Below are positions 22,212-31,536 of a stretch of DNA of 64,000 nt, one piece after another (positions within the stretch are counted from its first letter, which is position 1; each line of letters opens with the position of its first letter). Both the position numbers and the translations under genes were made by a program. The notes under the pieces are model-generated. The model made no database searches. It had not been told where the DNA came from and saw only the letters and a program-made list of their open reading frames with translations. The stretch lies in the NCBI GenBank assembly GCA_025056455.1, contig JANWVY010000002.1:172737-236736 (forward strand), in the 5' to 3' direction. This DNA is from Bryobacteraceae bacterium. Its GTDB lineage: Bacteria > Acidobacteriota > Terriglobia > Bryobacterales > Bryobacteraceae.

Positions 22212-23519
22212 TTAATTCGCGGGCTCTTTATAGGCGATTAGATGAACGCGGGAGTAAGTTTGCGGGGCGCGGTCCTGTCGCTCGCGCACATTCATGGTGT
22301 CTTCATAGCGGAGGATCCGGAGTCCGTCGAACAAGCGCACAAGCTGGTTGGTAGGATGGCCTGGCGGAATCCCCACCGTAACGCGGAAGTTCGTCGAGGT
22401 TCTCACGTCGGCGTGAAACCCCTCGACGACTAGGAGGCCACCTGGTTTGAGCGCGGCAATCAACCGCGGAGCGTTCTCCACGGTGAGGTCATGCATGTTG
22501 GCGGCGACAATCAGATCCCATTTCGCCTGACCCAGATCGTACTGGCGGATGTCGGCCAGCACAGCGTCGATTTTCAGCTGCTTCTCGGCGGCTGCTTTTT
22601 TTACCTTTTCGATGGCCACGTCGGAAATGTCAATTCCCGTCACTTCCCAGCCCTGCGAAGCCAGCCACAGCGCATTGCGCCCAAGCCCCATGCCGAAATC
22701 GAGCGCCTTGCCGGGACGGAGGCCTTGGACGGCTTGCACGACGATGGCGCTTGGTTCGCCCGCCAGCGGCGGATTAGGCCGGCTAAACGCCTCGTTCCAG
22801 ACCGTTCGTGGATCCGTCCCCGGACCTGGAATTCGGGTGAACACCAGAAAATTTTGGTGTGGGAGAAAGTCGTGCTGCTCAACCAAGCGGTAGCCAGCGC
22901 GTCCCATTTCGTTCTGAATTTGCTCGGGCGGGAAGCGGTGTGCGGCCGGCGGCCCCATAGGCGCATCTTTTTTCCAATCGATGATGGCGACCCGCGCTTG
23001 AGGCCGGAGAAGCGGCTCGAGCTTCTGAAAGTAGCCGATGCGATCCGCGATGTGATGGTAGGTATTCACGACGAGCACCAAATCCACTGCTTCCGGCAGA
23101 TTGGGTGAGGTTTCGCTCCCTTGAACCGCGTGCAAACGGTCGAGCTTTTCGTTTTGGGCTCGCTGGCGCAGAAACTCGACCATCTTCGGCGCAATATCCA
23201 CGGCGTAGACTATGGGCGCCGACTCATGCCGCGCGAGACGGACAGCGAAATAACCCGTACCTGCGCCGATATCGGCAATCTTCATGCCAGGCCCAAGCTT
23301 CAGGGTCCGCAAAACATCCCCAGGACGTTGCCAGGAATCGCGCTGAGGATCTTCAAGCCGCTCTCGGTCCCGCTGCGGGTCAAACTCCCGCATCATGTGC
23401 CGGCCTTGAGAAGGCAGGGACGTCGCCGGGGTTTGGCTTGCTGGTTGGGCCTTCAAACCAAGCACCCCGCACAAACCCGGCAACAAGGCGAGGAAGAGCG
23501 ATGAGGAGGGCAAGCGCAT
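22212..23519 (-). CDS. Exported protein with two tandem class I methyltransferase domains
   Basis: A 435-residue protein with an N-terminal signal-like segment (MRLPSSSLFLALLPGLCGVL) and a linker. The first SAM-methyltransferase domain has motif I DIGAGTG at residues 83-89 and the VDIAPKMVEF post-I acidic residue. The second has motif I DFGMGLG at 274-280 and GIDISDVAIEKV after it. The front of the first domain (DPQRDSWQRPGDVLRTLKLGPGMKIADIG) is a common acidobacterial and planctomycetal methyltransferase entry. Both domains look competent for SAM binding. The apparent signal peptide is puzzling, because SAM is cytoplasmic; the segment may be an anchor rather than a cleaved signal. The gene starts 17 bp from the divergent receptor at 23537. 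Confidence 0.8.
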   Translation of the reverse strand: MRLPSSSLFLALLPGLCGVLGLKAQPASQTPATSLPSQGRHMMREFDPQRDRERLEDPQRDSWQRPGDVLRTLKLGPGMKIADIGAGTGYFAVRLARHESAPIVYAVDIAPKMVEFLRQRAQNEKLDRLHAVQGSETSPNLPEAVDLVLVVNTYHHIADRIGYFQKLEPLLRPQARVAIIDWKKDAPMGPPAAHRFPPEQIQNEMGRAGYRLVEQHDFLPHQNFLVFTRIPGPGTDPRTVWNEAFSRPNPPLAGEPSAIVVQAVQGLRPGKALDFGMGLGRNALWLASQGWEVTGIDISDVAIEKVKKAAAEKQLKIDAVLADIRQYDLGQAKWDLIVAANMHDLTVENAPRLIAALKPGGLLVVEGFHADVRTSTNFRVTVGIPPGHPTNQLVRLFDGLRILRYEDTMNVRERQDRAPQTYSRVHLIAYKEPAN

Positions 23520-23536
23520 ACAGATATGATAATCGT

Positions 23537-26500
23537 ATGTTAGCAGTCTGTTCTCCTACCGTACGTCTTTGGTTGTGGACTCTTTGCCGGGGATTGAATA
23601 CCTGGCTTTTTCTGGCGGTTTGGAGCGGCTGCCTGTTTGGGCAACAAACGGCGGGCTCCATCCGCTTTCGCGTTCTCGATGCCTCGGGCGGGGCGATCTC
23701 TCAAGCCCGACTCCAGCTGATTTCGGAAGCCAGCGAACGGAGCTGGCAAGCCGTCACCAACTCACAAGGCGAGGCCATGGTCAGCTGGCTCCCCGTGGGG
23801 CTTTACCGAGCTCGTGTGGAAGCAGAGGGCTTTGCTGCGGTTGAGCGTGCGGGGCTGCCCGTGGCTGTCAACCAGGAGTTATTGGTCAGCTTCACGCTTC
23901 AGATCGGAGGTCGACGTGAGGTGGTTCAAGTGATCGCCGATGTCAGTGAAGTGAATTTGGCCAGCGGGCGCTCCGGTCAAGTCATGGAGCGGAAAGCTGT
24001 CCAAGAGTTGCCGCTGAATGGCCGCAATTTCCTCGAGCTCGCCACGTTGCAAGCCGGCGTCGCACCGCGCGGCCCTGCCGTGACCGAATCGACTCCGGTT
24101 CTGCCCGGGCAGCAAAGCTTCAGCGCGAACGGTCTGCGGCCGCAATCGAACAACTTCCTGTTAGATGGAGTGGACAACAATGAAGGGGGCCTTGGGGCGG
24201 CGGCCGCCGTACCTTCGCCCGACGCCTTACAGGAGTTCCGCATCTTGACGAACAGCTACTCAGCGGAATACGGCCGCGGTGGAGGGGCAGTAGTGAATGT
24301 GCTGACCCGCTCCGGCGGCAATCAACTGCATGGCTCTCTCTACAACTTCCTCCGCAATGACGCTTTTGACGCCCGCAATTTTTTCTCTGCGACGGTGCCC
24401 AACCTGACACAAAACCAGTTCGGCGCCACGCTCGGCGGGCCGCTACGAAAAGACAAAAGCTTTTTCTTCGTCTCCTATGAAGGATTCCGGCGCAAACAAG
24501 GACAAACCGCCAGCGCCACTGTTCTCTCCGCATTAGAACGCCAAGGCGACTTTCGCCAAAGCCCAGTGCGACCGCGGGATCCCTTGACCGGGCAACCCTT
24601 CCCCGACGGCGTAATCCCGGCGTCTCAACTCCATCCCATCAGTCAGAACATTCTGCGAAGGATTCCCCTGCCAAACGTGGGACGGAACCAGCTGATTTCG
24701 GTCGAAGATGGCATCCTGAACGCGAATCAAGGCTTAGCGAGACTCGATCACTGGTTGTCCTCACGGCACCGTTTGCAGTTGCGCTACTTCGGACAGGGAA
24801 GCGACATTGGGAAACCCTTCACCTTCCCGCCACCAGTAACCATTCCTGGGTTGCCTTACAACGACTTTGCGCGCACTCACAATGGCCTGGTCGCTTACAC
24901 GGGCGCCTTGTCGAGCGCTTTCCTTGTGGAAAGCCGCCTGAGCTACGGCCGTTTTGAGTCGCTCAACAACAGTCCGAACTTCCAAATTGACCCCGTTCCC
25001 CTCGGCTTCCGCTTCCCCTTCTCCGGCCCCGCTAACCTCCCTATGCTTGTGTTGTCTGGCCTGACCAGCTACGGAACCAGCACATCGACCGATGCGCGAA
25101 GGCGTGACAACCGGTACCAAGGGCAGAATCATCTCGCCTGGCAGCGCAAGAACCACTCCCTGAAATTTGGAGCTGAGCTTTGGTGGAATCGCTTCAGCAT
25201 TCGCGAGGATTCCAACGTGTACGGCTCGTTCAACTTCACTGGGGGAGTCTCTGGCAGTACGGCAGCTGACCTCGTCCTGGGCCTACCGAGCCGTTTTACG
25301 CAAGGCAAGGCCGGCACGGCCGCTTACTTCCGGTCTCCTTTTTTGCAATTCTACGTGCAGGACGACTGGCGGTTGACGCCAAGGCTCACGGTCAATCTCG
25401 GTCTACGCTACGAATGGAACCAAACGCCGCGGGAACAGCAGGACCGGCTCGTGGCTTTTCGGCCTGGCGCTCAGTCGCAACGTTTGAACGGTGCGCCGGC
25501 TGGGTTGTTGCTGGAGGGGGATCCGGGCGTAGAGCGAATTCTTCGCACCACGCGGACAAATTTCGGACCGCGTCTTGGCTTTGCCTGGGATCCCTTTGGG
25601 AGCACGCGGACCAGCGTTCGAGGCGGCTACGGAATCTTTTTTGACCCGCTCCTTCAGGTCTTATTCACGAATCTCGCCGTGAATGTGCCGTTCACGGTGA
25701 ATGCAGCGGGCACGACACCGCGCAATTTTGCCGATCCTTTCAGTGGCCAAAGCCCGTTCCGACCTGAGGCTCCATCGCTTTTCTTCCCCAACTTTCTGGC
25801 TTTGACAACCATCGATCCGGACTACCGGACTCCCTACACCCAGCACTGGAACTTGACCCTCGAGCAACAGCTCCCGACCGGGGTTGTGGTGGCGGCGGGC
25901 TATGTGGGCACGCGCGGTGTGAGACTGCCGGGAACCAACATTCTGAACACGGCCGAATTCCGCCCAGGCGCCAATGCACAGAACATCGACCAGCGCCGCC
26001 CCTTTGCGCCTGCCTTTGGTCCGATCCTCAATTTCCACTCACGTCTCAATTCGAGTTATCATTCCGCACAATTTAGCGCCAGCCGGCGGTATTCGGACAA
26101 CCTCACCTTGCTAGCCGCTTATACTTTCGCCAAAACCATCGATGAAGGTTCGTTCCCGACCGGACGGCTTGCCATCCGAATCGGTACTCTTCCGCAAAAC
26201 CAAAACGATTTTCGCGCTGAACGGGGACTGTCCAATTTCCACCAGCAACACCGGTTTACCTTTTCTGGGATCTGGGCCTTGCCCGTTTGGCGTTCTCCAA
26301 AGAATGGATGGCAGCGACTGCTTGGCGGCTGGCAACTGGCCTCGATCGTGACCCTAGCCAGCGGACAACCGTTTATCATTCAGGATGGGTCCGACCCGAA
26401 TTTAGATGGCGTCGCTTCGGACCGTCCCGACTTGATCCGCAATCCCAATCTCCCGAAGAGCGAACGCACGCTGGGCCGCTACTGGGATACCAGCGCCTTT

Positions 26501-26791
26501 GTGCGTTTGCCAACCGGGATCAACCGTTTCGGCAACGCCGGGCGCAATGTCGTGATTGGCCCGTCGCTCGCAAACTGGGATGGTGCGCTCAGCAAGCGCT
26601 TTGCATTCGGCGAGCGCTGGTCCGCTACCTTCCGCTGGGAAGTTTTTAATGGGTTCAATCACCCCAACTTCGCTAACCCGACAGGCGGTTCGCCGAGCAA
26701 CGATATTTCCTCGCCCCTGTTCGGACAGATTCAGTCAACAATTCCAGACAACCAGCGGATCATGCAGTTGAGCCTGCGGCTGTCGTTCTGA
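23537..26791 (+). CDS. Oar-like TonB-dependent receptor
   Basis: A 1,084-residue outer-membrane protein. ATG 23537 is used because the frame further upstream is antisense to the methyltransferase gene. After a signal segment (LFLAVWSGCLFGQ) comes a carboxypeptidase-regulatory-like domain (SIRFRVLDASGGAISQARL to EGFAAVERAGL). Next is the plug domain with QELPLNGRNFLELATLQAG, NNFLLDGVDNNEGGLG and the EYGRGGGAVVNVLTRSGGNQLHGSLYN-type segment. The beta-barrel contains FGATLGGPLRKDKSFFFVSYEGFRR and NLGLRYEWNQTP and ends in LSF, a terminal phenylalanine suited to barrel insertion. It probably imports a large or complex substrate. It is followed after 154 nt by a secreted hydrolase-like gene on the same strand, so it may belong to that locus. 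Confidence 0.92.
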   Translation: MLAVCSPTVRLWLWTLCRGLNTWLFLAVWSGCLFGQQTAGSIRFRVLDASGGAISQARLQLISEASERSWQAVTNSQGEAMVSWLPVGLYRARVEAEGFAAVERAGLPVAVNQELLVSFTLQIGGRREVVQVIADVSEVNLASGRSGQVMERKAVQELPLNGRNFLELATLQAGVAPRGPAVTESTPVLPGQQSFSANGLRPQSNNFLLDGVDNNEGGLGAAAAVPSPDALQEFRILTNSYSAEYGRGGGAVVNVLTRSGGNQLHGSLYNFLRNDAFDARNFFSATVPNLTQNQFGATLGGPLRKDKSFFFVSYEGFRRKQGQTASATVLSALERQGDFRQSPVRPRDPLTGQPFPDGVIPASQLHPISQNILRRIPLPNVGRNQLISVEDGILNANQGLARLDHWLSSRHRLQLRYFGQGSDIGKPFTFPPPVTIPGLPYNDFARTHNGLVAYTGALSSAFLVESRLSYGRFESLNNSPNFQIDPVPLGFRFPFSGPANLPMLVLSGLTSYGTSTSTDARRRDNRYQGQNHLAWQRKNHSLKFGAELWWNRFSIREDSNVYGSFNFTGGVSGSTAADLVLGLPSRFTQGKAGTAAYFRSPFLQFYVQDDWRLTPRLTVNLGLRYEWNQTPREQQDRLVAFRPGAQSQRLNGAPAGLLLEGDPGVERILRTTRTNFGPRLGFAWDPFGSTRTSVRGGYGIFFDPLLQVLFTNLAVNVPFTVNAAGTTPRNFADPFSGQSPFRPEAPSLFFPNFLALTTIDPDYRTPYTQHWNLTLEQQLPTGVVVAAGYVGTRGVRLPGTNILNTAEFRPGANAQNIDQRRPFAPAFGPILNFHSRLNSSYHSAQFSASRRYSDNLTLLAAYTFAKTIDEGSFPTGRLAIRIGTLPQNQNDFRAERGLSNFHQQHRFTFSGIWALPVWRSPKNGWQRLLGGWQLASIVTLASGQPFIIQDGSDPNLDGVASDRPDLIRNPNLPKSERTLGRYWDTSAFVRLPTGINRFGNAGRNVVIGPSLANWDGALSKRFAFGERWSATFRWEVFNGFNHPNFANPTGGSPSNDISSPLFGQIQSTIPDNQRIMQLSLRLSF

Positions 26792-26945: not shown

Positions 26946-28220
26946 ATGACGCAAGCGGCGGGGATTCGATTGGTCCTGGCCAGCCTGCGGGCAATCTTGG
27001 CGGCCGGGATTTTGGCGCCTTTCGCCTTGGCGATGGCGCCCCCCGGACCTTATGACGGCGAAACGTTTCGCGGCCGGATCGCTTGGAGTTGCGATGGCAA
27101 TCACAACGACGAGGACGATTGGGCTGCCTCTCCGGTCGCCTTGGCGATCTTCGCCTTGGCGGGAGTCAAAGACCGTCTGGTTCACTTTCACTACAACAAT
27201 ATTCTTCCCAACACCAATCCGGCTTGGGAGAAGGAGCATGAACTCAGCATCTCGGGCGCGATTGAGCGCTACGGCTACAGCCGCTCCATTTTTTATGACT
27301 GCCGCCGTGATCTTGACGGCGCTGTAGCGGCCTTGATACACGCCATCAATCAATCATCCCCTTCGAACCCGCTCTATCTCATCCTGGCAGGACCGATGGA
27401 GGTTCCCTTCCTCGCGATTCAGAAGTCGGATCCGGCGAAACGAAAGTACGTTTATTGCATCTCCCACAGCCGCTGGAATGACGGCTTTGCGCGAGGCTAC
27501 CGTTTTCCCTATAACAAACGAGCTGTCATCCCCACGGGCATCCGCTGGATCCAAATTGCCGACCAAAACAAAGGATTGTCGACGGGACCCTTCGGCCGCC
27601 CTCACACCCCCGAGGAGTGGGCTCCGTGGCTGTGGATGCGAGACTCCAAGGGGGACAACGTGCGCTTCCTTTGGGAGCGGATGTGGGCAACCAAGCGCGC
27701 TGATTGCTCCGATGCTGGAATGGCCTACTTTTTGGTTACGGGTGATGAAGCGGCTTCGATCGACAAGCTGCGCGAGATGTTAGAACACGGGGTCAGGCCC
27801 CAGCGGGTGCGGTGGCGTCCTTGGGTGCGCCTCGAGGCCGAGAATTTTCTTGGCTTGGAAAATTTCGAGCTGGAGGACAGTCATCCGGAAGCTTCCCACC
27901 GTCTCAACCTTAAGCTTGTCTCCGGCGCCCGGACTGGCCGCATTTGGGTACCGTTTCACGAACCGTTCACCCCGGAGCGGGCTCGCTATGACGTGGAGGT
28001 GCGTTACTTACAAACGTCGGGACCGGCTTGCGAATTCACGCTGCTTGTCAACGGCTCACCTCGCGGTACGTCCTGGCATGCAGCCTGCACTGGCAGCTGG
28101 GCTGCGCAATCCCTCCCGTCGATTCAACTCAAGACCGAGGACCGCCTGGAGATTCGGACACAGTGCCAGCCCGGAGGCGAGCCCCGTCTGGATTATGTTC
28201 ATCTCACACTGAAGCGATGA
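26946..28220 (+). CDS. Secreted nucleoside-hydrolase-like protein with C-terminal carbohydrate-binding-like domain
   Basis: A 424-residue protein with a signal peptide (ending near APFALA) and GGGAG before the ATG. The mature start FRGRIAWSCDGNHNDEDDWAA holds an aspartate/asparagine cluster (D50, N54, D55, D57, D58) like the calcium-binding D-x-D-x-x-x-DD of inosine-uridine nucleoside hydrolases, but arranged as in the distant exported relatives found in Planctomycetes. The segment HFHYNNILPNTNPAWEKEHE follows. The C-terminal 130 residues (RLEAENFLGLENFELED onward, with YDVEVRYLQTSGPACEFTLLVNG) resemble a beta-sandwich carbohydrate-binding module. Its stop overlaps the next start (ATGA). The substrate is unknown; a glycan rather than a nucleoside is likely given the binding module. 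Confidence 0.6.
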   Translation: MTQAAGIRLVLASLRAILAAGILAPFALAMAPPGPYDGETFRGRIAWSCDGNHNDEDDWAASPVALAIFALAGVKDRLVHFHYNNILPNTNPAWEKEHELSISGAIERYGYSRSIFYDCRRDLDGAVAALIHAINQSSPSNPLYLILAGPMEVPFLAIQKSDPAKRKYVYCISHSRWNDGFARGYRFPYNKRAVIPTGIRWIQIADQNKGLSTGPFGRPHTPEEWAPWLWMRDSKGDNVRFLWERMWATKRADCSDAGMAYFLVTGDEAASIDKLREMLEHGVRPQRVRWRPWVRLEAENFLGLENFELEDSHPEASHRLNLKLVSGARTGRIWVPFHEPFTPERARYDVEVRYLQTSGPACEFTLLVNGSPRGTSWHAACTGSWAAQSLPSIQLKTEDRLEIRTQCQPGGEPRLDYVHLTLKR

Positions 28221-29968
28221 GACGCGCCTTGGCCATGTTTCTGCTTGCGGCGACAGTTAGTCCGGCTGCCTCTTCTTCTCGGCAGTTGCGCCTCGCTGTC
28301 GTGCAGTTGTCCCCGGGTCCGTCGTTGCAGGCGAACCTGGAGCGGATGCTCGAGTGGATCGGAGAAGCGTCTCGGCAGAGAGCCCGGGTTGTGGTTTTTC
28401 CCGAAGCCGCCCTTCACGCAACCGGCCGAACCGTTGATCACGATCTCCAAGCTGCTACGGAGGCCATTCAGCGGTCGGCGCAGCGCCACCAGCTGTATGT
28501 CTTGTACGGCGGACTGCACTGGTCTGGCCGGCGCCAGAAAGAGACAAACTGGATGAAAGTCATCTCGCCCGCTGGCGCTGAACTACTGCACTACGACAAA
28601 CTTTGGGAAATCCGGGACGCTCCGGCGCCAGAGCTTTTCCAAATTGACGGGATTCCCGCTGGCGCGATCTTGTGTGCCGATCGCTGGCTACGCGGGTTGG
28701 AGGATTTACCCGTGCAGCGAGGCGCTCAGATCCTCTTTGAGTTGTCCAACAATTTCGCTGTCGAGTGGGTCCCCGAGCTTCAATGGTATTGGTATGTGCC
28801 GCGAGCCCTTCGCAACTCGGTTTGGGTTGTGTTTGCCAACTCCGGTAATCGGATTCCGGGCCAGCCGGAACCTTGGAGCAAGGACGGGCCGCGGCATGGC
28901 CACAGCGCCGTGATCGCCCCGGACGGATCGCTGGCAGCGGCAGCGCACGATGATGGCGAGCAGTTGCTGGTTGCCGACATCGAGGTCAGTCGCGCAAGCC
29001 GTGCGGAAGCGCTGGCTCGCCGCCAGCATCCAGTTGTGGGCCGTTTCTGGCGCGCGGGCTTAGAGCAACTTCTCAATACGAGTTCATCGACTCCGATGCT
29101 GGCCCAAAAGGATTGTCCCAACACGGAGTTGACAGTCGCCACCGCGCAAATCGCGGAAACTTCCCAGCCAGATCGGAATGCCTTAGCGCTCGCGGAACGC
29201 ATCGCCGAGGCTTCCCGCCGCGGGGCAGACCTCATCGTCTTCGGTGAGCTGACCCTTACGGCAGGACGTGCCATCTCAAGCGAAAAGGTTCTGCCCCTCC
29301 TATGCCAAGCGGCCAAAGCCGGCCGGATCACGGTAGTCTTTGGCATGCCTTGGCAGCAGGATGGCAAGTGGCGGAATTCTGCCTTCGTTCTCGGTCCTGA
29401 CGGATCTCTTCTTACGCGATACGACCAAATGGTCGCCAGCCGGCCTTTCGATTCGGGCCGGCAACCAGCGTCCATGTGGTTTGAGGTGAGAGGCGTTCCC
29501 GCCGTGGTCACGATCGGGAAGGAAGTACTGTGGAATGAATTTGCGGAATTAGCGGCGGTGGCCGGAGCGCGTCTTCTGATCCATCTCGCCCGCCAGCCAG
29601 TGCCGGATCGCGCAGCGCACTTGCGCCGGCGTCAAACGGGCGCTGCCTTTGCCTCCTACGGCACCTTGACAGTGATGGCGAACGCAGCAGGCTATAGCGC
29701 GATCTGGGAAGACCTCAATGCTTCCGAAGAAACGCGTTCCGTATTACAGAAGCTGCCGCGTCCGGAGTTTGGCCCCGCACTCATCTTTTCACCGTTCTCG
29801 GCGAATTTGGTTGCCGAAGCTGGACAAGGGCCTTCTTTGATTCTGGCTCGACGGCGGATTCCCGGCCGGAATGACCATTACCCGCGACGGACGGCCCGCT
29901 TTCATCCTTCGATGGCCGCATGGTATGTTCGGGGAGCCTCAATCCTCATGGGACAGCCAGCTCAATAA
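28217..29968 (+). CDS. Exported tandem carbon-nitrogen hydrolase (nitrilase superfamily) protein
   Basis: A 583-residue protein with a signal peptide ([19 protein letters not shown]) and two nitrilase-fold domains. The first (about residues 24-285) has the full Glu-Lys-Cys triad: E63 in VVFPEAAL, K128 in HYDKLWE and C153 in AILCADRW. The second (about 305-575) keeps E344 (VFGELTL), but the lysine position reads RYDQ (Q404) and the cysteine position reads VTIGKEVLW (G434), so it should be catalytically dead. Nitrilase-family enzymes hydrolyse amides and nitriles and are usually cytoplasmic, so export is unusual. The ATG at 28217 overlaps the previous stop by 4 nt, implying translational coupling. 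The next gene starts 11 nt after its stop. Confidence 0.8.
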
Positions 29969-29979
29969 GCCTTCGGAAC

Positions 29980-31536
29980 ATGCAGCCTCTCTACATTCAA
30001 GTTCACGCGAGCGACAATGTGGCGATTATTGTGAATCCTGACGGATTGGCGGCCGGTACGGAATTCCCCAATGGTTTGCGCTTGCGGGAAGCTATCCCCC
30101 AATCCCACAAGGTGGCGCTACGGACAGTGGAGCAAGGCGAACCAGTTCGCCGGTACGGACAAGTCATTGGATTCGCGAAACGCAGAATCGAAGCGGGCGA
30201 CTGGGTTCGCGAGGAGCTGGTCGAGCTGCCAACGCCACCGCCTCTGGATCAACTGCCGCTGGCCACCGCGGTTCCTCCCGAACTGCCTCCGCTTGAGGGA
30301 TACACGTTTCAAGGCTATCGCAACGCTGACGGGACAACAGGAACGCGGAATATCTTGGGCATCACAACCACAGTACAATGCGTGGCGCCCACCGTTGAGT
30401 ACGCTGTACAGCGCATCCGCCAGGAATTGTTGCCCCGTTTTCCAAATGTCGATGATGTCGTGGCGCTCACTCACACTTACGGCTGTGGAGTCGCCATCGA
30501 TGCTCCGGGAGCCGAGATCCCCATCCGTACGTTGCGCCATCTCGCCTCCCATCCAAATTTCGGCGCCGCTCCTCTGGTGGTCAGTCTAGGCTGCGAAAAG
30601 CTTCAGCCGTCACGGTTGTTCCCCGACCAGCAGCTGCCCTCGGCGAGCGGGCCGCATTTGCCCGTCTTAAGCGCAGAAGCTTACTTGATTCGCCTTCAGG
30701 ACCATGAACTGCGAGGTTTTGCAGAAACTGTGGCGGCCATTTTGCGCTATGCCGAAAAACGGCTCGAAGAGCTGAACCGCCGCCAGCGCGTTGCGTGCCC
30801 TGCTTCGGAACTTTCAGTGGGTTTGCAATGCGGCGGCAGTGACGCTTTCTCAGGCGTAACCTGTAACCCCGCCGTCGGATTTGCTGCGGATCTATTGGTC
30901 CGCGCGGGAGCTACGGTGATTTTTGGGGAAGTGACCGAAGTTCGAGATGCCGTCCACTTGTTAACGCCTCGCGCAGCAACGGTTGATGTGGCCTTGGACC
31001 TGATCCGGGAAATGCGCTGGTATGACGAATATTTGGCGCGGGGCCGGGCCGACCGCAGCGCGAATCCCACACCCGGCAACAAGCGCGGCGGCCTGGTGAA
31101 CGTGGTGGAGAAAGCTTTGGGCTCCATTGCAAAATCCGGCACTTCCGCCCTACGGGCAGTGGCCGGGCCAGGCGAGCGCGTGCGAAGCAAAGGGCTGGTC
31201 TTCGCTGCCACGCCAGCCAGCGACTTCATCTGTGGCACGCTCCAGTTGCCCTCCATGAACCTTCACGTGTTCACAACAGGCGAGGGCTCACCCTACGGAC
31301 TTGCCTTAGTCCCGGTGGTCAAGGTTTCCTCCCGTACGGCTCTCGCAGAACGCTGGCCTGACCTGATTGACATCGATGCAGGCCGCATTGCCACGGGCGA
31401 GGCCACGATTGCCGAACTTGGGTGGCAAATCTTCCACTACTTGTTAGAAGTGGCTAGCGGGAGCAAAAAGCCCTGGGCCGAACGCTGGGGGTTGCACAAC
31501 GCCCTCGCCTTGTTCAATCCCGCCCCGGTGACCTAG
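29980..31536 (+). CDS. UxaA/GarD-family sugar-acid dehydratase (altronate/galactarate dehydratase-like)
   Basis: A 518-residue cytoplasmic enzyme begun at ATG 29980; an earlier start at 29920 would overlap the neighbour. The N-terminal SAF-like domain ([16 protein letters not shown] to [14 protein letters not shown]) and the C-terminal UxaA/GarD catalytic domain are joined in one chain, as in full-length altronate and galactarate dehydratases. Conserved elements are [53 protein letters not shown] and the ending [16 protein letters not shown]. These enzymes are iron-dependent lyases removing water from aldaric or aldonic acids to give 2-keto-3-deoxy products. The choice between altronate and galactarate cannot be made by eye. 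It is 11 nt behind the tandem nitrilase gene, so co-transcription is very likely. Confidence 0.85.

Follow-up and report, generated by a model that had tools for sequence, protein, structure and literature searches.

A tandem of one live and one dead nitrilase domain, conserved across bacterial phyla and linked to an undescribed exported-looking partner

Why should a soil-type bacterium keep, in a single exported-looking chain, a nitrilase domain with its catalytic residues next to a second one that has lost them? The question is raised by a gene in a stretch of 64,000 nucleotides of a Bryobacteraceae genome (contig JANWVY010000002.1), referred to here as the window. A first-pass annotation had described its product as an exported double nitrilase with one dead half and had suggested that this half binds substrate or fixes the oligomer.

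Two nitrilase domains and their catalytic positions

The gene is an uninterrupted reading frame of 583 codons before the stop (Table 1). Its start at ATG 28217 is credible because this codon overlaps the stop of the upstream gene by 4 bp (ATGA at 28217-28220) and because the ORF coordinates of a 57% homologue (L033) show the same overlap. By inspection, the N-terminus has a hydrophobic stretch after two arginines (RR), and to the extent of such inspection the export claimed for the protein is supported. Signal-like N-termini, whether hydrophobic, lipobox-like or twin-arginine-like, are recognized by eye in 12 of the 14 tandem proteins described below, two of which (L041 and L042) are counted only with an earlier start taken; the N-terminus of L036 is doubtful as a signal and L044 shows none.

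The Pfam family CN_hydrolase (PF00795) matches the protein twice (E 6.6e-37), and all six residues assigned to the two halves, E63-K128-C153 and E344-Q404-G434, lie exactly where the first-pass annotation had placed them. Profile-profile alignment of the two domains, with 14 sequences each, gives a probability of 99.7 and an E value of 1.2e-26 at 21% identity, and puts E63 and E344, K128 and Q404, and C153 and G434 in the same columns, which rules out an alignment error behind the catalytic losses. Domain 1 has the Glu-Lys-Cys triad of the nitrilase superfamily in 14/14 proteins. In domain 2, the cysteine and the lysine are lost in all 14 and the glutamate in five, where alanine or valine replaces it, so that E344, previously listed as retained, is not a conserved feature. 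The column of E131 (K128+3) is acidic in 14/14 in domain 1, and the matching stretch of domain 2 has no conserved acid. Judged by these residues, domain 2 is a member of the nitrilase fold but not an enzyme of the superfamily.

The α-β-β-α fold of the nitrilases is found in domain 1 by Pfam, by the AlphaFold2 model and by a close structural match to NitFhit (1ems; Z 29.9, rmsd 2.6 Å over 255 residues), and in domain 2 by the profile alignment to domain 1 and the order of the predicted structural elements. Modeled together with the 14-row alignment, the two domains form one compact body (pLDDT 89.8, pTM 0.89), in which the strands and helices of each half make up a separate nitrilase-like set. 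No PDB structure spans both halves among the 50 matches listed (query TM-score ≤0.38), and a sequence search of solved structures returned single nitrilase domains only; some single PDB chains align to domain 1 and also to part of domain 2, in the range of residues 508-578.

Domain 1 has features of its own around the nucleophile. The cysteine opens the motif CADRWLRG, as against CHDERYPE in its single-domain relatives, so Arg(C+4) and Glu(C+7) are absent. The spacing between lysine and cysteine, counted in alignments, is 25 residues compared with 36 in 3p8k and 41 in 2w1v; single-domain relatives also look shorter than the PDB proteins, and short spacing is thus not clearly a trait shared by the two domains alone. 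The eight NCBIfam families listed, which include Nit6803 nitrilase, deaminated glutathione amidase, AguB, Lnt and NAD+ synthase, all score below their cut-offs, the best being Lnt with 60.2 bits against 132.9.

Table 1. Coordinates of the features discussed, in positions of the window
Feature	Position	Strand	Remarks
TonB-dependent/Oar-like outer-membrane receptor	23105..26791	+	Pfam PF25183, E 9e-225; true start probably later
Partner gene	26946..28220	+	exported-looking; nucleoside-hydrolase fold (~40-283) and CBM35/36-like module (292-424); overlaps tandem by 4 bp
Tandem nitrilase-superfamily protein, exported-looking	28217..29968	+	583 aa; stop included
Signal-like N-terminal segment	28217..28276	+	hydropathy script and inspection; pLDDT <50 at residues 9-20
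Domain 1, catalytic-type CN_hydrolase	28283..29068	+	residues 23-284; PF00795 at 25-261; Z 29.9 to NitFhit 1ems
E63, catalytic Glu of domain 1	28403..28405	+	kept 14/14
K128, catalytic Lys of domain 1	28598..28600	+	kept 14/14
E131, candidate second catalytic acid just past Lys	28607..28609	+	D/E in 14/14
C153, nucleophile of domain 1, motif CADRW	28673..28675	+	kept 14/14
Domain 2, pseudo-enzyme CN_hydrolase	29123..29965	+	residues 303-583; hhalign to domain 1, probability 99.7
E344, vestigial Glu of domain 2	29246..29248	+	E 9/14, A 4/14, V 1/14
Q404, at catalytic Lys position of domain 2	29426..29428	+	Q 13/14, G 1/14
G434, at catalytic Cys position of domain 2	29516..29518	+	G 14/14
Galactarate dehydratase	29980..31536	+	11 bp downstream of tandem; NCBIfam TIGR03248, 878 bits vs cut-off 731

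Conservation, spread and origin of the tandem

Homologues were collected with exact peptide patterns from domain 1 only, in one genome per species across 84,980 species; domain 2 therefore played no part in choosing them. The scan led to 13 loci, every one of which encodes a full-length tandem, and with the window they make a set of 14 full-length proteins, assigned by the titles of their records to Acidobacteriota (including Bryobacteraceae and Solibacteraceae), Verrucomicrobiota (including Opitutaceae), Planctomycetota and a Latescibacterota MAG. The proposed pairing of a catalytic domain with a pseudo-enzyme is conserved across these four phyla: glutamate, lysine and cysteine of domain 1 are kept in all 14 and both substitutions of domain 2 persist, glycine for cysteine in every protein and glutamine for lysine in 13, with glycine in the remaining one. 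None of the 14 of this lineage has an intact second triad. A local mutation or a sequencing error in the window is ruled out, as the same losses are found at the 13 other loci.

The two domains are conserved to a similar degree, with a mean pairwise identity among the 14 proteins of 0.487 for domain 1 and 0.463 for domain 2, and with 43 and 28 invariant positions, respectively. Within domain 2, the loop of the former glutamate is the least conserved element (0/14 invariant, score 0.339), and in the helix past the lost cysteine 6 of the 15 residues are invariant. Simple NG86 counts for the two closest pairs, the others being nearer saturation, give dN/dS values of 0.114 and 0.153 for domains 1 and 2 in L042/L045, and of 0.120 and 0.109 in L034/L035. 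Some more distant pairs, themselves nearer saturation, change faster in domain 2, as in L033/L036 (0.41 vs 0.20 in domain 1). Pseudogene decay of domain 2 is ruled out by the low dN/dS and the near-equal conservation, and by these sequence measures domain 2 is a maintained pseudo-domain under purifying selection. The persistence of the one-live-one-dead design in distantly related bacteria suggests a separate function for the dead half.

Two paralogues depart from this design. An Opitutaceae genome that also encodes a full tandem has a frame of 376 residues (L106 7745-8872, minus strand; G633:C73) in which the catalytic part of domain 1, its E, K and C intact, is joined to no more of domain 2 than the final ~90 residues, so that the pseudo-active site is missing; the frame adjoins a gene of the partner type described below (a nucleoside-hydrolase-like/glycosidase fusion). 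Judging from this chimera, a single-domain form may be viable, and the C-terminal segment could be the part of domain 2 that matters. The other, in genome G032 (L031 5256-7235, plus strand), combines the N-terminal ~25 residues of domain 1 with the second half of domain 2, followed by a glycosidase-like domain, and lies just upstream of a partner and an intact tandem; it is either a relic or a fusion. Since both paralogues are without an intact second half, such a half, as far as these sequences indicate, is not universally required.

The tandem gene is rare and patchy. Full-length tandems are found in 3 of 101 relatives, 2 of 396 genomes of the phylum and 5 of 200 genomes of the family, the window's own genome counted each time, and the other tandems from the whole-genome searches look, by frame length and identical profile scores, like genes already among the 14. 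At E 1e-40 and with the search centre set aside, the tandem is seen in 0 of 386 Verrucomicrobiota genomes (the phylum of L038) and 0 of 391 Planctomycetota genomes (the phylum of L043), counts that are lower bounds with ~3 candidates per genome scored. In the tree of domain 1, one sequence from Bryobacteraceae pairs with one from Verrucomicrobia, their branches being short (0.077 and 0.14), and this cross-phylum pairing suggests that the gene has been transferred between phyla.

The trees are compatible with either origin of the tandem, an internal duplication or a fusion of two different nitrilases. Domain 1 and domain 2 each form one clade (100/100). They group with each other at 86/84, with one long-branch row inside the group, and at 70/83 in a tree of 55 rows that left out 17 of the 72 (five long-branch rows and 12 of one dense clade). 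Topology tests do not reject a grouping of domain 1 with the single-domain relatives (p-AU 0.396), nor one of domain 2 with them (0.28).

The partner gene and its genomic context

The gene that precedes the tandem has no Pfam family up to E 1. Its structural model (pLDDT 85.2, pTM 0.84) divides into two parts, of which residues 40-283 match nucleoside hydrolases (RihA 3g5i, Z 14.8, rmsd 3.5 over 210 residues) and residues 292-424 match CBM35/36 modules, including a CBM35 solved with anhydrogalacturonic or glucuronic acid. Foldseek ranked CBM and Cry-toxin domains first, matches that we read as concerning only the C-terminal β-sandwich of the model. True nucleoside hydrolases carry an Asp-rich motif of the kind seen in the partner, where DGNxNDxDDW is conserved in 9/9 and the family motif reads, in fuller form, GRIxxSxDGNxNDxDDW; fold and N-terminal Asp-rich motif are thus both those of a nucleoside hydrolase. 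Some homologues also carry a C-terminal glycosidase-like domain. On its predicted structure, the partner represents an undescribed exported-looking family with a nucleoside-hydrolase fold and a CBM35-like module.

The link between the two genes recurs. The partner lies within the tandem's own locus in 8 of the 14 loci (several of the rest are short contigs), and ORF coordinates give a 4-bp overlap of the two genes in the window, L033, L035 and L036, and in L039 if its partner starts at an internal methionine. Among the 200 family genomes, for which only some candidates per genome were scored, a nucleoside-hydrolase-type domain is found in five, exactly the five with a tandem; the 40 other genomes with a match have it only to the C-terminal glycosidase-like extension of some partner members. 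The chance of such a five-out-of-five coincidence is 1 in C(200,5), or ~4e-10, if the genomes are independent, which they are not. Across the tandem genomes the domain is found in 11 of 14 and unmatched in G339, G637 and G635, the last matching the C-terminal part only.

In the window the gene order is TonB/Oar-like receptor, partner, tandem, galactarate dehydratase and NIPSNAP. The neighbours at other loci include a GHL6-type glycosidase domain, sulfatase-modifying-factor/SMP-30 domains, a 2-hydroxyacid dehydrogenase and a class II aldolase, and we read the context as one of sugar-acid or glycan use. Another link between the nitrilase fold and carbohydrate cleavage is seen in Verrucomicrobia RA.bin74, where ~6 kb upstream of the tandem a CN_hydrolase domain is fused to an apiosidase-like/GH5 glycosidase domain (L035 12-2123, plus strand). 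The window also holds a second exported-looking tandem enzyme near the nitrilase locus, a protein of 435 residues whose single chain carries two SAM-methyltransferase domains behind a signal-like N-terminus (22212-23519, minus strand), which is odd, as SAM is not expected outside the cell.

A possible role for the dead half and its counterparts in known systems

A live/dead nitrilase tandem shared across phyla, together with an undescribed partner, is confirmed by these results, and a plausible mechanism can be proposed for it. Most likely, judging from sequences, models and analogy, the protein is an amidase of sugar-acid or glycan scavenging in which the dead half replaces a second subunit. 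To this reading as a whole, an exported C-N hydrolase with domain 2 as a built-in second protomer that acts with the partner in sugar or glycan scavenging, we give a probability of about 0.5. Domain 1 would perform the chemistry by the cysteine route with its Glu-Lys-Cys, the Asp or Glu just past the lysine being the probable second acid, and domain 2, with glycine for cysteine and glutamine for lysine, would be incapable of it. Domain 2 would pack on domain 1 in the place of an identical subunit and hold the entrance of the active site ordered, a service for which known nitrilases rely on the subunits next to them. As a secreted enzyme in dilute surroundings could not rely on self-assembly, a fused dead copy would be a solution, and the covalent pseudo-dimer would stay active though secreted and dilute. 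After the fusion, the second active site would have been free to decay with the contact surface still selected, a course that fits the conservation pattern. The substrate would be an amide-bearing sugar or glycan, scavenged together with the partner, the TonB receptor and the sugar-acid catabolic genes. That the second half fixes the oligomer, one of the two roles first suggested for it, is what we infer, and it agrees with the compactness of the predicted structure and with what has been published on nitrilases. Against the reading as a whole stand the single-domain form in the Opitutaceae genome, the missing Arg(C+4) and Glu(C+7), and the three tandem genomes without a nucleoside-hydrolase-type match. 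A further proposal, that these proteins are exported obligate pseudo-heterodimers whose dead copy fixes the active-site loops, giving concentration-independent activity in a two-component glycan system with the partner, is put forward tentatively.

The other role first suggested, substrate binding, would make domain 2 a ligand-binding module, whose emptied pocket captures substrate, product or, as a lectin would, polymer ends, and so feeds or regulates domain 1. The invariant W439, W497, W569, E441, E444 and D499 of domain 2, the above-average conservation of the segment from Q404 to G434 (0.481 vs 0.442 for the domain), the CBM35-like module of the partner and the setting of carbohydrate use all speak for it; yet a conserved site in the old pocket would hardly be expected to leave the loop of the former glutamate as its least conserved element, and we hold this role to be unlikely, if still worth serious attention. 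A leftover scaffold that serves the folding, stability or secretion of domain 1, with no part at the active site, would account for a chimera that retains just the end of domain 2, as though what domain 1 required were a C-terminal cap. Such a scaffold is nonetheless rather improbable, as glutamine and glycine at the catalytic positions are fixed rather than drifting and domain 2 is under selection almost as strong as that on domain 1. The nitrilase superfamily also includes transferases, and domain 1 might be no hydrolase at all, transferring an acyl or amide group on a glycoconjugate by Lnt-like chemistry. The unusual residues past the nucleophile and the sub-threshold match to Lnt (60 bits, cut-off 133) are compatible with this, but the model consists of two soluble nitrilase-type domains and the structures it resembles most are those of amidases and Nit proteins, which makes a transferase very unlikely.

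If the pseudo-heterodimer proposal holds, the reason why nitrilases oligomerise becomes testable inside one chain. With a live and a dead protomer in one natural chain, the structural role of a second subunit could be separated cleanly from its chemical one, and the tandem provides a cross-phylum case of a pseudo-enzyme in the nitrilase superfamily. The locus also draws attention to a partner family, undescribed and exported-looking, with ties to carbohydrate use.

Our literature search, in the collection of papers that it covered, found nothing on a tandem or dead nitrilase, and no paper pairing 'nitrilase superfamily' or 'carbon-nitrogen hydrolase' with 'pseudoenzyme'. The nearest known proteins are NitFhit (1ems), mouse Nit2 (2w1v), the S. 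aureus protein 3p8k and the Nesterenkonia amidase, which share the fold of each domain and the Glu-Lys-Cys of domain 1. Unlike the Nit/omega-amidase branch and the amidases, the window protein has two domains per chain, the second of them dead, is exported-looking, and combines CADRWLRG at the cysteine with a shorter spacing between lysine and cysteine. A protein of genome G160 (L047, G160:C80; a frame of 578 residues) likewise has two CN_hydrolase domains in one exported-looking chain, but with two triads that look intact and a first domain placed in a different clade it is an independent tandem.

Two systems show how a neighbouring subunit can serve a nitrilase active site. In DRT1, the nitrilase pocket is completed by C-terminal residues of the protomer next to it, and homo-oligomeric assembly is described as required for the activity of nitrilase-superfamily enzymes (PMC13275509). 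DRT1 resembles the window protein in that its nitrilase domain is part of a multidomain chain and relies on the C-terminus of a neighbour for its pocket; it differs in acting inside the cell against phages, in having an intact catalytic tetrad and a reverse transcriptase, and in lacking a dead nitrilase half. In β-ureidopropionase, assembly orders the entrance loops that bear the second catalytic glutamate, and a C-terminal helix provides a 'mutual hugging' between subunits (PMC10741476). The likeness lies in an activity tied to neighbouring subunits that order the entrance loops and the second glutamate. There, however, assembly is reversible and brings together identical active subunits, whereas in the window protein the neighbour would be a covalently attached dead copy.
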